A stretch of 64,000 bases of DNA from Rubellicoccus peritrichatus (GTDB taxonomy: Bacteria; Verrucomicrobiota; Verrucomicrobiia; Opitutales; Cerasicoccaceae), in NCBI RefSeq assembly GCF_033100135.1, contig NZ_CP136920.1:2475001-2539000 (forward strand), written 5' to 3'. The position numbers and the translations under genes are program-made. Below, piece after piece: positions 16,813 through 21,828 of the stretch; position 1 is the first letter of the stretch; each line of letters begins with the position of its first letter. Under the pieces are notes generated by a model. The model did not search any database, was not told the origin of the DNA, and saw only the letters and a program-made list of their open reading frames with translations.

Positions 16813-17907
16813 ATGGCGGCTACTTTCACATTTATTTGCGGCGATGATGACTTTTTGGTTGGGCGTGAGGCTCAGGACGTATACGCATCCAAAACCGAGG
16901 GCATCGAAGACGACTTTTCCAAGGAGGTCGTTGAGGCCAGTGCGCAAAACGTTTCTGAAGTTGAAGACGTCGTGAATCGCTTTCGCTCCGCAGTGCAGAC
17001 GCTTTCCATGTTTGGGGACAAAAAGGTTGTCTGGCTTAAAAGTGTCAGCTTTCTGGCGGATTCCGTTACCGGACGTTCCGAAGGAGCCAAAAAGCAAACC
17101 GCTGACTTGCAGGAGTTACTGGAGAAGCTGGACCCATCGGCAGTTGACGTCCTCGTGACAGCTTTTCCAGTCGACCGGCGGCGTAAGGAGTTTAAGTGGT
17201 TCCAAAAGAACAGTGAGTTCACGGACCTGAAGGGCATGGACAGTGAAGAGTCGCTCGTGGCCATGCTGCAGGCTGAATGCGAGCGATTGAGTGTAACCAT
17301 CGATACACGTGCCGCCATGGGCTTGATTGCACGGGTCAATGGCAACACCCGGCTTGTTCTTGAAGAATCACGTAAACTTGCCGCTTACCTTGGGGCCGAA
17401 GGTGGCCAGATTACCGAAGCTATGGTGATTGAGCTTGTCCCTGCATTTGGCGAGGGAGATTTCTTTGAAGTGGCCGAAGCTTTCTTTTCATTGGATCTAG
17501 GTTGGACATTGGATGCGATCCGCCGCCATTTCTTTAACAGTGATCAGGCTCGTCCGATTATTAGCACATTGCAGAATCGTAATCGACTCATGATCCAGTT
17601 ACGAGTATTGATGGATTCCGGTGAACTTTCTTTAGGAGCCCGAGGCTTTTCCAAACCTGCCTTCGAGAGTGCCGCACGTGTCTACGCCGGGCATTATGGT
17701 GGGTTTGATGACAAGGCCGCATTTAACGTATTTACACAAAACCTTTGGTATCTTGGTAATAAAATCGCACCGTCGATGCAGGGTTTGAATCTTAAGCGAC
17801 TGATCGATTTTCAAATGGGTTTTGCCGATGCTTTCGTCGGAATTCTTGATCGCCCGAATGATCAGGAGTCTGTCATGCGTGATCTTGCAATTCGATGCCT
17901 TGGTTAA
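16813..17907 (+). CDS. holA: DNA polymerase III subunit delta
   Basis: 364 residues, normal for the family. Delta is the wrench that opens the beta sliding clamp as part of the clamp loader. The N-terminus FICGDDDFLVGREAQDV matches the usual 'Y.l.GeE.fl' opening, and the fold follows the AAA-like delta pattern (VVWLKSVSFL, LARVNGN-type segment, ITEAMVIELVPAFGEGDFFEVAEAF). The C-terminal collar helices contain LQNRNRLMIQLRVLMDSG. It is divergent from the large secreted protein across 287 bp with no other feature seen. Confidence 0.88.
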   Translation: MAATFTFICGDDDFLVGREAQDVYASKTEGIEDDFSKEVVEASAQNVSEVEDVVNRFRSAVQTLSMFGDKKVVWLKSVSFLADSVTGRSEGAKKQTADLQELLEKLDPSAVDVLVTAFPVDRRRKEFKWFQKNSEFTDLKGMDSEESLVAMLQAECERLSVTIDTRAAMGLIARVNGNTRLVLEESRKLAAYLGAEGGQITEAMVIELVPAFGEGDFFEVAEAFFSLDLGWTLDAIRRHFFNSDQARPIISTLQNRNRLMIQLRVLMDSGELSLGARGFSKPAFESAARVYAGHYGGFDDKAAFNVFTQNLWYLGNKIAPSMQGLNLKRLIDFQMGFADAFVGILDRPNDQESVMRDLAIRCLG

Positions 17908-17972: not shown

Positions 17973-19175
17973 ATGAATTTATCTATTCTGTCTTGCGCCC
18001 CCAAATGCTATTCAACAATGCGCCTAATAGAGGCGGCAAAGCAGCGTGATCATAAGGTTAAAGTTCTTAACACCGTACGTTTAACGATCGATCTGGCTGA
18101 TGGGGAACCGAACCTTTTCTACAAAGACAAAAGAATTGTGCCGCCGGATGCCATCTTACCAAGAATTGGCACATCGGTTACACGCTATGGGACAGCTGTT
18201 GTGAGGCAGTTTGAGAAAATGGATGTATACAGTCCCAATTCATCGGCTGGTATCAGTTATTCCCGGGATAAGCTGAGGAGTTTGCAAATTCTTTCCCGTC
18301 ATGATATCGGGATTCCGGTTACTGCATATGTAGATGACAAACGCGATGTGCAGGGCGCGTTGGAACGTATCGGTGGAGCGCCAGTCATCATCAAGTTGCT
18401 TGAAGGGACTCAAGGCGTGGGTGTTATTCTTGCCGACAAGCTGGAGATTGCAAAAGCCATTGTGGAGACTTTGCATAGCACGAATCAACAGGTTCTGCTT
18501 CAGAAGTTTGTCGCCGAGAGTAAAGGTAAGGATGTCCGCGCTTTTGTGATAGGGGACCATGTCGTTGCGGCAATTCGTCGAACCGCTCAGGGGCAGGAGT
18601 TTCGAAGCAATGTACATCGTGGAGGCAAGGCCGAGGCTATCGAGTTGCAACCCGAATATGCCAGGGCTGCGGTAAGTGCTGCTCAAATCATGGGTTTGCA
18701 TATTTGTGGTGTTGATATGCTGGAAGGGGCGAATGGTCCGCAAGTCATGGAAGTGAATTCTTCGCCGGGCCTTGAAGGGATTGAAGGAGCGACCGGGCTG
18801 GATGTTGCTGGCGCCATAATTGATTACATTGCTGATCAGGTAAAGTTTCCTGAGATTGATATCCGCCAGCGCCTCACAGTGAGCCAGGGTTATGGTGTTG
18901 CAGATATCAATATTCCAGTGGGCAGTAAATTTGTTGGCATGAGTATCGATAAAACCGGTTTGCGTGAGCAGGATGTTGTTGTGCTGACTTTACGTCGAGG
19001 AGGCGAAGTGATTTCAAACCCCAAGGGAAGCCGCGTATTAAAGGCAGATGATTCGCTGTTATGTTATGGTAAGTCTGAGCATATGAAGGCGTTGATTCCA
19101 GACCGTCCACGCAAGAGGCGACGCAAACTCAAACCATTGCCCAGTACACCAGTTACCGAAGGCACCAGGGCATGA
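17973..19175 (+). CDS. rimK: RimK-type glutamate ligase with C-terminal TrkA_C (RCK_C) domain
   Basis: 400 residues. Residues 1 to about 300 form a RimK ATP-grasp ligase (MNLSILSCAPKCYS, DAILPRIGTSVTRYG, GAPVIIKLLEGTQGVGV, GKDVRAFVIGD, MEVNSSPGLEGIE). RimK adds glutamate to the C-terminus of ribosomal protein S6 or makes poly-alpha-glutamate in known species. The last ~85 residues match a TrkA_C/RCK_C ligand-binding domain (INIPVGSKFVGMSI, LREQDVVVLTLRRGGEVI, LKADDSLLCYG), absent from the ~300-residue E. coli enzyme. The stop overlaps the next start by 4 bp (ATGA), so it leads a three-gene operon. Ligase family is firm; a regulatory role for the extra domain is inferred. Confidence 0.9.
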   Translation: MNLSILSCAPKCYSTMRLIEAAKQRDHKVKVLNTVRLTIDLADGEPNLFYKDKRIVPPDAILPRIGTSVTRYGTAVVRQFEKMDVYSPNSSAGISYSRDKLRSLQILSRHDIGIPVTAYVDDKRDVQGALERIGGAPVIIKLLEGTQGVGVILADKLEIAKAIVETLHSTNQQVLLQKFVAESKGKDVRAFVIGDHVVAAIRRTAQGQEFRSNVHRGGKAEAIELQPEYARAAVSAAQIMGLHICGVDMLEGANGPQVMEVNSSPGLEGIEGATGLDVAGAIIDYIADQVKFPEIDIRQRLTVSQGYGVADINIPVGSKFVGMSIDKTGLREQDVVVLTLRRGGEVISNPKGSRVLKADDSLLCYGKSEHMKALIPDRPRKRRRKLKPLPSTPVTEGTRA

Positions 19176-20245
19176 GTGGTGATATTGGAGTTTGGGGGGC
19201 TAAAGAAATCGCTCCAGGTGAGCGGAAACGCTTGCGTCTTGAGATTGGAAAGAGTTTTTCTGGTTCAAATGTGACACTGCCTTTGATGATATGGAGAGCG
19301 CCTGAGCCAGGGCCGGTTGTGGGAATTACAGCAGCCGTTCATGGGGATGAGATCAATGGAACGGGTGCGATCCGAGGTCTGGTTCAGGAGCCACCATTCA
19401 CGCTTAAGCGGGGCGCCTTGATCCTTGTGCCTGTAATCAATATCATGGGCTTTGAGCGCCATAGTCGTTACATGCCGGACCGACGTGACCTGAATAGATC
19501 TTTTCCTGGCACTCGAGGAGGTAGCCTGACTTCGCGTCTTGCAAGACTGGTTTTCGACGAAGTCATTGGGCGCTGTGACTACCTTATTGACTTGCATACT
19601 GCTGCCGTAAGACGAACGAATTTTCCCAATGTCAGAACTGATTGTAGTAATGAAGCGTGCAAGCGTCTTGCGCAGGCATTTGGGAGTGAAGTGATTGTCA
19701 ATGGAACGGGACCGGATGGTTCTCTGAGGAGAGAAGCTGTGAAGGCAGGATGTCCAACCATCGTTCTTGAAGCTGGCGAAGTCTGGAAAGTGGAGCCCGC
19801 AGTGCAGGATTTGACTGTAAGGGGAGTTTCGAATGTTTTGGCAGAACTTGAGATGACGGATCAGCCGCACGCGGCGCCACCACATCAAGTCGTTGTTGAG
19901 GAAACACGTTGGGTGCGCTCTGAGACAGACGGTTTCCTGCACTTTCATGTGACTCCCGGAGGCAGTGTTTCCAAAGGTCAGGCGATTGCCACCAGTACCA
20001 GTTTGTTGGGCAAAGAGAACGAGGTGATTTACAGTCCGCATGATGGTATCGTGATGGGGATGACCACAATGCCTGCGGTTGGACCAGGTGATCCTGTTGT
20101 TCATATTGCTATCCCCAGTACGAGGCGGCAGCATAAGCATATTGAAAAGAGTATTGATGATCTGGAGGAGGGGACAATTGAGAATGATTTGCGTTCACAT
20201 TTGGCAACAAATATCACGGTGACTTATCTTGAAGAGGATGGATAA
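19172..20245 (+). CDS. Succinylglutamate desuccinylase/aspartoacylase family protein
   Basis: 357 residues. Zinc amidohydrolase of the M14-like AstE/AspA family. Visible zinc ligands are His57 and Glu60 in AAVHGDEINGTG and His142 in YLIDLHTAA; the substrate-binding region has RRDLNRSFPGT. A C-terminal beta domain (about 245-335) resembles the lipoyl/biotinyl-like fold seen in this family. It overlaps rimK by 4 bp and the next gene by 17 bp. Linkage to a glutamate ligase suggests it removes or trims acyl or glutamyl groups, which is inferred from context. Confidence 0.9.
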   Translation: MSGDIGVWGAKEIAPGERKRLRLEIGKSFSGSNVTLPLMIWRAPEPGPVVGITAAVHGDEINGTGAIRGLVQEPPFTLKRGALILVPVINIMGFERHSRYMPDRRDLNRSFPGTRGGSLTSRLARLVFDEVIGRCDYLIDLHTAAVRRTNFPNVRTDCSNEACKRLAQAFGSEVIVNGTGPDGSLRREAVKAGCPTIVLEAGEVWKVEPAVQDLTVRGVSNVLAELEMTDQPHAAPPHQVVVEETRWVRSETDGFLHFHVTPGGSVSKGQAIATSTSLLGKENEVIYSPHDGIVMGMTTMPAVGPGDPVVHIAIPSTRRQHKHIEKSIDDLEEGTIENDLRSHLATNITVTYLEEDG

Positions 20246-20672
20246 GAACTTAATGATCATTGGTTGGCGCGAATGGATTGAGCTACCTGACTGGGGCCTT
20301 CGTATACGTGCAAAAGCCGACACGGGGGCAAAGAGCAGTGCGATTGATTGTGCTGAGATCGTTGAGCTGCCCAATAACCGTGTAAGATTCACGGTGCGTC
20401 TTGATCGCAAAGACAAGAAACGGGTGACACTGGAAGAACCAATTATGCTCCGCAAACGTGTTCGCAGCAGCACTGGGAATGGGCAGGACAGGATCTTTGT
20501 TGAAACGACCTTAAAGCTTGGTCAGGTCGAGAAACGTGTGATGGTCAGTTTGGTGTGCCGAAAGATAATGATACACCGTATGCTTCTGGGGCGCGAAACA
20601 CTCAGCGGCTCCTTTGTGGTGGACAGTTCAGTCGATCACTGGGCAACGCCAAGAAGGCTTAAGAAGAAGTAG
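20229..20672 (+). CDS. RimB-like retropepsin-fold protease (PF05618 type)
   Basis: 147 residues. It has the Asp-Thr-Gly motif of retroviral-type aspartyl proteases at residues 31-33 (AKADTGAKSSAID), with IGWREWIELPDWG before it and MLLGRETLSGSFVVD near the C-terminus, as in the 'ATP-dependent zinc protease' family. In Pseudomonas the RimB member of this family works with RimK on modified S6; here the same pairing occurs in an operon. The start overlaps the upstream gene by 17 bp; ATGs at codons 4 or 9 are alternatives. Confidence 0.88.
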   Translation: MKRMDKNLMIIGWREWIELPDWGLRIRAKADTGAKSSAIDCAEIVELPNNRVRFTVRLDRKDKKRVTLEEPIMLRKRVRSSTGNGQDRIFVETTLKLGQVEKRVMVSLVCRKIMIHRMLLGRETLSGSFVVDSSVDHWATPRRLKKK

Positions 20673-20811: not shown

Positions 20812-21828
20812 ATGTTCATTCGTAGCAAAACCATTCAAGCGACGAGCTTGATCCTGAAAGTATTACTGTTGAAGGCTATTCTGGCTGTCTCATCTGCACA
20901 GGCATATGTCGTTATGGATAGTGTTGTTGTGGGTGATATTGGCAATTTAGATGATAATACTGGCCATGGGGCGGTCGATTACGAATACCATATTGGTGCT
21001 CATGAAGTGACCAATGCACAGTATGCTGAATTCCTTAATGCTGTGGCGTCTACGGATACATTCAATTTGTGGTACTCGGGTATGCAGAGTAACGGAATCG
21101 ATCGTAGTGGTACGAGTGGATCATACACTTATTCAGCGACGACTGGAGCTTCTAATAAACCTGTGGCTTATGTAGGATTTTGGTCTGCAGCCCGCTTTGC
21201 CAACTGGATGACAAATGGCCAGTTAAGTGGTTCGCAAGATGATACGACAACTGAGAGTGGTATGTATGACTTAAATAGTGAGCTGAATCCGAATAGCCCA
21301 TCTATCACTCGTCAGATTGATTTTTCCAGTGGAGGAAGCGGAGTGGCCATTGCTAGTTTAGATGAGTGGTATAAAGCGGCCTACTATAATGGCGCAGACG
21401 GCACCTATTACAACTATCCGACCCAGAGCGACACTGCACCGAATGCCAGTGCGCCAAACGACACTGATTCAAACAGCGCTAACTTCGATAATGCGGTGGG
21501 TTCCGTAACCGACGTTGGAAGCTATTCGCTCGCGCAGAGTTACTACGGGGCTTTCGATATGGCAGGAAATTTATGGGAATGGAATGAAGGAATTTATGGA
21601 CCGACCGAACGAGGAATTCGAGGCGGTTCCACGGGAAATGCATCACATGCGCTTATCTCTTCGAATGATAGTAAGTTTGAGGCAAATGGAGATTATGTTG
21701 AATCATACATAGGCTTCCGCATTACAAGTGATGAAAGCCTGATGGTAGTTCCAGAGCCTGCGACCATATCCCTGGTCTGCGGTCTATCGGCACTTGGATT
21801 TGTTATGTGGCGCCGTCGCAGGGCTTAG
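20812..21828 (+). CDS. FGE/SUMF1-fold protein with PEP-CTERM tail
   Basis: 338 residues. A signal peptide ends near residue 31 (LAVSSAQA). The body has the sulfatase-modifying-factor fold (YHIGAHEVTNAQYAEFLNAVA, KPVAYVGFWSAARFANWM, DEWYKAAYYNG, GAFDMAGNLWEWNEG, RGIRGGS). The tail is VPEPATISL, a hydrophobic helix and RRRRA, a PEP-CTERM signal. The only cysteine lies in the C-terminal helix, so the cysteines used by true formylglycine-generating enzymes are missing. It is therefore probably a surface protein that uses the lectin-like fold for binding and is not an oxidase. Function unknown. Confidence 0.9.
   Translation: MFIRSKTIQATSLILKVLLLKAILAVSSAQAYVVMDSVVVGDIGNLDDNTGHGAVDYEYHIGAHEVTNAQYAEFLNAVASTDTFNLWYSGMQSNGIDRSGTSGSYTYSATTGASNKPVAYVGFWSAARFANWMTNGQLSGSQDDTTTESGMYDLNSELNPNSPSITRQIDFSSGGSGVAIASLDEWYKAAYYNGADGTYYNYPTQSDTAPNASAPNDTDSNSANFDNAVGSVTDVGSYSLAQSYYGAFDMAGNLWEWNEGIYGPTERGIRGGSTGNASHALISSNDSKFEANGDYVESYIGFRITSDESLMVVPEPATISLVCGLSALGFVMWRRRRA

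Follow-up and report, generated by a model that had tools for sequence, protein, structure and literature searches.

In Pseudomonas, the ATP-grasp ligase RimK is encoded in rimABK and, together with the protease RimB, acts on the C-terminus of a protein. The RimK proteins of Escherichia coli and Pseudomonas fluorescens also make free poly-alpha-glutamate; P. fluorescens RimB stimulates this synthesis, with chains of up to 36 in vitro, and in addition cuts polyglutamate (PMC11957791). According to the same source, P. fluorescens RimK responds to cyclic di-GMP (c-di-GMP). In the RimK of Pseudomonas aeruginosa, ten positions are reported either as contacts of the glutamate chain or as lining of the substrate loop (PMC10092738). 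Another set, rloABC, has been described in P. aeruginosa, where cells that have lost the three RloA proteases are sensitive to hypo-osmotic conditions unless the ATP-grasp protein RloC is lost as well (PMC12239564). Cyanophycin is polymerised by a synthetase and degraded by a cyanophycinase, and an enzyme of the AstE family can split the dipeptide (PMC10206079). Here we report on a RimK protein that is fused to a C-terminal TrkA_C (RCK_C) domain and on the two genes that follow it, in a stretch of 64,000 nucleotides (the window) of Rubellicoccus peritrichatus (Verrucomicrobiota, Opitutales; contig NZ_CP136920.1, positions 2,475,001 to 2,539,000). The fused RimK module is a real, recurrent and widespread variant of the known RimK system, and its annotated name is doubtful.

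The locus shares with the Pseudomonas system (PMC11957791, PMC10092738) the ligase core, the active-site residues and an adjoining gene of the RimB family, and poly-alpha-glutamate chemistry is likely common to both. Unlike rimABK, it carries a TrkA_C domain on RimK and an AstE-like third gene, has no RimA in the trio, and occurs with a tailless ribosomal protein S6; the terms 'TrkA' and 'succinylglutamate' are absent from the main texts of the two papers (term counts). The RimBK hybrid protein (PMC11957791) is likewise a RimK with an extra domain, but there the addition is the RimB protease; in the locus RimK is extended by RCK_C, and RimB has a gene of its own. In rloABC a retropepsin gene is also found with an ATP-grasp gene; in contrast to the trio, RloA is secreted and RloB is a transmembrane inactive transglutaminase (PMC12239564), for which the trio has no gene. 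By analogy, the rescue through loss of RloC fits a product that would be harmful when uncut. With the cyanophycin cycle (CphA, CphB and CphZ) the trio would have in common a peptide polymer made by an ATP-grasp enzyme, a first peptidase and a dipeptide hydrolase of the AstE family; the polymer and the first peptidase are different ones, and the cycle serves as an analogy for the working order alone. The features of the locus, in window coordinates, are:

17973-19175, + strand: RimK open reading frame (ORF), 400 aa
17973-18842, + strand: RimK pre-ATP-grasp and ATP-grasp core, alpha-L-glutamate ligase (residues 1-290), from Pfam and the match to 7qyr
18843-18890, + strand: linker specific to the fusion (residues 291-306), with DxRQRL, from conserved columns
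18900-19094, + strand: TrkA_C / RCK_C domain (residues 310-374), PF02080
19104-19142, + strand: basic C-terminal stretch (residues 378-390), RPRKRRRKLKPLP, from the printed ends and column 384
19172-20245, + strand: zinc hydrolase of AstE/AspA fold, 357 aa, PF24827
20238-20672, + strand: RimB-like retropepsin (DTG), 144 aa from the ATG at 20238, PF05618

A first-pass annotation had read this DNA as a RimK core with some 85 extra C-terminal residues matching TrkA_C, ATGA-coupled to an AstE/AspA-type zinc hydrolase and followed by a DTG-type RimB-like protease, and this observation is confirmed. Pfam places Rimk_N at residues 1-94 (5.8e-33), RimK at 98-286 (1.2e-57) and TrkA_C at 310-374 (E value 1.5e-9; 38.1 bits against a curated gathering cut-off of 27). 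The C-terminal segment therefore holds a true TrkA_C domain, but the domain proper takes up 65 residues and is followed by the basic stretch. In a 69-row alignment TrkA_C was matched by 59 members, which are all of the fused rows, so the match is not due to chance; the remaining 10 rows are unfused RimKs. With regard to the ligase, the protein belongs to the RimK family of alpha-L-glutamate ligases (TIGR00768, PF08443; 236.9 bits against a cut-off of 143.4). It scores 303 bits with the model of the 30S ribosomal protein S6--L-glutamate ligase (PRK10446), under the equivalog cut-off of 331, and the models of MptN, LysX and CofF, RimK-fold enzymes that act on small molecules, also match, each below its own cut-off. 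The closest solved chain is P. aeruginosa RimK, 7qyr (E value 6.2e-90), to which the predicted model superposes with a VIA Z of 34.5 and a root mean square deviation (rmsd) of 2.4 over 292 residues; the fold-search rows listed span the ligase core and barely the TrkA_C part, the identity of which rests on sequence profiles. The linker is conserved in the fused rows (D296 in 72/73, R298 and L301 in 73/73, R300 in 71/73), and residues 292-303 of the model have a predicted local distance difference test (pLDDT) score below 50. The C-terminal stretch is basic in most relatives with printed ends, which cover the last 30 residues only, so that longer tails escape; at alignment column 384, R or K is present in 66 of the 73 fused rows.

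The fusion is not confined to this genome. A protein search of genome contigs gave 386 relatives, and the best 80 of them, which were kept, all align through TrkA_C (to residue 376 or further) and carry titles of Verrucomicrobiota, Planctomycetota, Desulfobacterota, Chloroflexota and Pseudomonadota members. When Verrucomicrobiota were sampled evenly, RimK was found at E 1e-60 or better in 39 of 387 genomes; judging the table by eye, 17 of the 41 rows listed reach through TrkA_C and 24 end near residue 290. A search of 392 genomes from the phylum of a planctomycete gave matches at E 1e-110 or better in 69; the 71 matches were reduced to 68 Planctomycetota loci, given that two from genome G071 were already in the set (L081 and L245) and G772 was excluded. 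Among plasmid sequences, the fused RimK query was nowhere covered to 80%. The tree of the ligase core and the column counts were obtained from 92 rows, after the removal of near-copies (about 93% identity), the duplicates L001, L002, L169 and L170, and the partial L176. In this tree one branch separates the 73 fused from the 19 unfused rows (support 99/96; 100% of 200 bootstrap trees), and a single fusion event would be enough to explain the fused clade. An additional RimK-like gene without the fusion occurs in seven of 30 fused genomes (that of G078 forms a very long branch), which argues for separate jobs of the two forms, and G071 carries two fused copies. Locus L097, titled Opitutales, adjoins a Deltaproteobacteria-titled row with weak support and comes from a doubtful bin.

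The three-gene set recurs along with the fusion. RimB-like and AstE-like genes are both found near fused RimK at 44 of 80 genome contigs, 15 of 16 Verrucomicrobiota and 31 of 68 Planctomycetota loci, counts for which some of the fetched stretches stop at contig ends. The first-pass annotation had proposed to look for the same gene order in close relatives, and the order RimK-AstE-RimB was found in L031-L036, L221 and L228; the order RimB-RimK-AstE occurs in G003, G005 and G007 (L230-L232), from the same family as the genome of the window, and is common elsewhere. Both partners are also present at 12 of 20 unfused RimK loci, so the trio is independent of the fusion, and the fusion was rejected as the cause of the three-gene set; the distinctive part is the fusion. 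The trees of the AstE-like and RimB-like proteins separate fused from unfused loci only imperfectly, with 4 and 2 label changes, respectively (quick method, without bootstrap).

At the DNA level, the TGA stop of rimK (19173-19175) overlaps the ATG of the AstE-like gene at 19172 as ATGA, and the 3' end of the latter overlaps the start of the RimB-like gene, for which, by eye, the ATG at 20238 is likelier than the TTG at 20229. In the AstE-like protein the AstE_AspA_cat domain (PF24827) is found at residues 46-225 (2e-35; 122.5 bits against a gathering cut-off of 25). Its residues H57, E60, H142, E200 and N108-R109, invariant in 51 rows of which nine are from unfused loci, are presumably the metal-binding, catalytic and carboxylate-binding residues of AspA/AstE enzymology. 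The score with the DoeB model is 67.3 bits against a cut-off of 402.7, that with the aspartoacylase model 24 bits against 180, and the AstE model is absent among the three models listed for this protein at E 1 or better. By sequence it is nearest to DoeB-like chains, and the closest folds of its AlphaFold model (pLDDT 87.8) are 3cdx and DoeB, 6twm, the DoeB-like chains giving Z 30-31; CphZ, 8ein, comes in the eighth row, under the DoeB-like chains (Z 25.7, rmsd 3.2 over 292, 15% identity). The RimB-like protein matches Zn_protease (PF05618) at residues 10-135 (3.7e-24), and its D28-T29-G30-A31, which includes the DTG catalytic motif, is invariant in 42 rows. With NF052261 (RimB) it scores 97.2 bits against an equivalog cut-off of 200, which makes it RimB-like and not RimB by that model, and it stays far under the cut-offs of the RloA models (RloA3 51.6 against 210, RloA 33.4 against 280, RloA2 28.3 against 250 bits). 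Around the trio, a gene for the DNA polymerase III delta subunit (16813-17907) on the same strand ends 65 bases upstream of rimK, and just downstream lies a gene for a protein with an FGE-sulfatase domain (20812-21828) that matches PEP-CTERM weakly, at 19.7 bits and so just under the cut-off of 20.7. Between 16500 and 21900 no Rfam family reached its gathering score, and promoter- and terminator-like matches were not above those in shuffled sequence.

If the fused RimK acted as its name says, its substrate would be ribosomal protein S6. In this genome S6 has 100 residues and ends in VNRILVQSK, with no acidic tail; as a control, that of E. coli ends in GDSEE. The S6 survey took in 26 Opitutales (10 of them fused), 30 further fused genomes and 30 Verrucomicrobiota (8 fused), where the rows of G313 and G444, at contig positions identical to those of G054 and G060, were counted once. 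A C-terminal Glu was found in none of the 24 fused Verrucomicrobiota genomes, this one included, where by eye the chain ends at or right after the conserved core, and in none of the 22 Verrucomicrobiota with unfused RimK only (L177-L189 and 9 more). Among the 16 Opitutales without fused RimK one S6 (G025) ends in LVQAE, with a C-terminal Glu but no tail. As the tailless S6 is seen with or without the fusion in the genomes examined of this phylum, it is uninformative on the fusion itself. If RimK depends on a C-terminal glutamate tail in the way of the E. coli and Pseudomonas enzymes, a dependence that we infer, the S6 tail would not be the substrate here, and it was rejected as such for this lineage; outside Verrucomicrobiota, where S6 ends in Glu in 9 of 22 fused genomes, it may be the substrate. 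The annotation 'S6--L-glutamate ligase' is thus doubtful for the fused and the unfused-only Verrucomicrobiota examined. A write/erase module for glutamyl tails had been put forward in the first-pass annotation: that ligase, protease and hydrolase recur as a unit, with catalytic and polyglutamate-contacting residues kept, is borne out, but the S6 tail as its target in this lineage is not.

What the ligase may make instead is suggested by its active site. In the alignment columns of the fused rows, S7 is kept in 72/73 and S14, R64, S68, R189, R211, H215, R216 and N262 in 73/73, and at R8 the residue is Cys in 42/73, this protein among them, and Arg in 26/73. Nine of the ten positions that contact the chain or line the loop thus retain the typical residue in 72 or 73 of the 73 rows, and the glutamate-polymerising site is kept. 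Given these residues and the free poly-alpha-glutamate made by the E. coli and Pseudomonas enzymes, RimK-TrkA_C would join glutamate into short alpha-linked chains, either free or on an acceptor. The RimB-like protease would cleave these chains and, like its P. fluorescens counterpart, may stimulate the ligase; to judge from its fold and conserved residues, the AstE-like zinc enzyme would free single glutamates from the short pieces; and the TrkA_C domain would gate the ligase through a small ligand linked to the ion or osmotic state. On the cyanophycin analogy, RimK would thus make, RimB cut and the AstE-like enzyme finish. We infer the product, the step of each enzyme, the gating and the ligand, and hold it as a serious though tentative possibility, somewhat short of probable, that the trio is a glutamate-polymer cycle without an S6 tail in this lineage, with TrkA_C gating the ligase by a ligand tied to the ion or osmotic state. 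The real product of RimK is probably something other than modified S6; a free polymer of glutamate with a part in salt and water balance is one possibility.

The link to ions comes from the gene neighbourhood. Neighbour profiles made from the first 80 loci were run on the 68 Planctomycetota loci, which had been drawn regardless of their neighbours: MscS was present in 7 (0.66 expected, P 6e-6) and CorA in 11 (0.31 expected), with rough expectations, as these were derived from six genomes for MscS and from 25 for CorA, some of which had been picked after the neighbours had been seen. The over-frequent MscS and CorA neighbours point to ion and osmotic balance. At the unfused locus L238 (Malonomonas rubra, the genome of L070) RimB, RimK, AstE, CorA and MscS-like genes lie on one strand. 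The identifier K05844 we take to be rimK. K05844 is among the glutamate-modification genes that are commoner in brackish than in marine genomes (PMC10219603), and this frequency supports the ion link loosely. Several points weigh against the polymer cycle and its osmotic side. Three of the 7 MscS loci are one clade (88-94% identity), and counted once they leave 5 (P about 6e-4 by our own arithmetic); seven of the 11 CorA loci are also one clade (90-99% identity), again leaving 5 (P 1.8e-5). MscS or CorA lies near the module in a minority of the loci (13/80 genome contigs, 2/16 Verrucomicrobiota and 15/68 Planctomycetota) and nowhere in the window. Two of the 20 unfused loci show the link (L238 with both genes, L180 with CorA), 13 of the 20 being only about 3.9 kb long, so it may belong to RimK generally and not to TrkA_C. 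Neither RimB nor AstE is nearby in 9/80, 0/16 and 23/68 loci, in the same order; the AstE-like model is nearer to DoeB-like deacylases than to CphZ; we found no fused RimK with a measured product; and free poly-glutamate is low in wild-type Pseudomonas cells in vivo (PMC11957791).

With respect to the gate, a profile of the C-terminal domain of 49 members matches chains of KtrC (E value 6.7e-6), KhtT, KtrA and the Ca2+-gated MthK, and also one GntR-family chain, 7b5t, which we take to be BusR; by profile, the domain belongs to the same family as the RCK_C receptors KtrA, KtrC, KhtT and BusR, a type of sensor domain that occurs in potassium channels. KtrA, KtrC, CpaA, KhtT and BusR are listed as binders of cyclic di-AMP (c-di-AMP) (PMC8517857), and sensing of a nucleotide by TrkA_C, as the first-pass annotation had suggested, is plausible. 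In the fused rows the region is well conserved (R342 71/73, N349 67/73, P350 73/73, D360 72/73, G366 73/73). C364 (window 19062-19064), in the motif LLCYG, is also invariant, in 73/73. For the comparison of the pocket we assumed the numbering of KtrA and its c-di-AMP contacts. Equivalents of the hydrophobic floor and the proline of the c-di-AMP pocket are present (I325, L330, V337, P350), and R331 is found in 61/73. The loop lacks one residue relative to that of KtrA, the equivalent of A170 is Glu or Asp in 70/73, N175 corresponds to Val here but to Asn in many of the relatives, and RCK_N was not found by Pfam. A DAC domain is present once in this genome (G000; E value 1.1e-18) and in 31 of the 38 fused genomes searched; the seven without it are six gammaproteobacteria and one Deltaproteobacteria-titled metagenome-assembled genome. 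The gammaproteobacterial clade, which counts as one event, lost G329 in 6/6 rows and R331 in 3/6.

Of 165 fused loci, 2 have cyclase genes close to RimK (P 0.11 by chance for at least 2 loci, 0.02 for at least 3 genes); the 68 Planctomycetota loci, an independent draw, have none. In L081 (7242-9324) RimK-AstE is followed on its own strand by a gene for a DacZ-like diadenylate cyclase, 49 bases past the AstE-like stop, and on the other side are a divergent MscS gene and a second cyclase gene. In L094 (8350-11603, minus strand) genes for a CdaA-YbbR diadenylate cyclase and a DHH/DHHA1 phosphodiesterase-like protein precede the RimB-like gene on one strand; upstream of RimK this locus also has MgtC and CNNM genes and one for a protein with mechanosensitive-type transmembrane helices. 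With two suggestive loci only, the neighbourhood was rejected as a link to c-di-AMP. By its sequence relatives, c-di-AMP is a possible ligand of TrkA_C; c-di-GMP is another candidate.

Other readings of the product have to be set against the polymer cycle. Glutamylation of the S6 tail under TrkA_C gating, the first-pass view, has on its side the family name, the PRK10446 score and the Glu-ended S6 proteins of the 9 fused genomes outside Verrucomicrobiota, but that score is below its cut-off and the fused Verrucomicrobiota S6 chains stop around the conserved core without a single C-terminal Glu, and we regard it as very unlikely. RimK-TrkA_C could instead act on the C-terminus of some protein other than S6, with RimB and the AstE-like enzyme trimming the tail; such a role would agree with the action of RimK and RimB on a protein C-terminus in Pseudomonas (PMC11957791) and with the conserved active site, and the basic stretch could dock nucleic acid or the ribosome. 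Against it, we found no cluster of neighbouring ORFs of at least 90 aa beyond the trio in more than 12 of 80 loci, acidic tails and shorter ORFs not having been searched. We also know of no acceptor candidate, and consider this role unlikely, if worth keeping in view. A third view, in which a cofactor or metabolite receives glutamate from the ligase and the AstE-like enzyme takes off an acyl or a glutamyl group, after the manner of LysX, MptN, CofF and the DoeB relatives, draws on the matches to those models, on the nearness of the AstE-like protein to DoeB-like chains in sequence and fold, and on the Cys that so often replaces R8. However, the polyglutamate subsites S7, S14, R64 and S68 are kept, a protease from a polyglutamate-cutting family belongs to the same unit and the DoeB score is far from its cut-off, which makes this view improbable.

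Two further readings concern the TrkA_C domain. It could serve oligomerisation or be a leftover without any ligand, which is compatible with every reading of the product: RCK_C domains also dimerise, as in BusR (PMC8517857), the RimK core is a tetramer (PMC10092738), and some of the pocket-equivalent positions are unlike the c-di-AMP type. Yet the conserved residues of the domain and the DxRQRL linker are kept across several phyla, and we find the absence of a ligand rather doubtful. At the other extreme, RimK-TrkA_C would be a new class of osmotic effector, in which RCK_C reads c-di-AMP or the K+ state and sets the share of glutamate held as poly-alpha-glutamate; polymerising would keep the negative charge that balances K+ and remove osmotically active particles, which RimB and the AstE-like peptidase would restore. 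L081 and L094 fit this idea strikingly, but the scarcity of cyclase genes near the module, their absence from the Planctomycetota loci and the lack of a cyclase domain in all six gammaproteobacterial hosts tested count against it, and we judge it quite improbable.

In the literature searched, a RimK joined to TrkA_C/RCK, or to succinylglutamate desuccinylase, was not found described. Iyer and co-workers (2009, amidoligases) reportedly described RimK-like neighbourhoods with peptidases, and priority for the three-gene set may lie with them. In the Verrucomicrobiota examined, fused and unfused RimK alike occur without a Glu-ended S6, and the role of RimK beyond S6 becomes a testable question; the RCK_C sensor and the channel neighbours suggest a concrete hypothesis for it, the ion or osmotic control of glutamate polymerisation.

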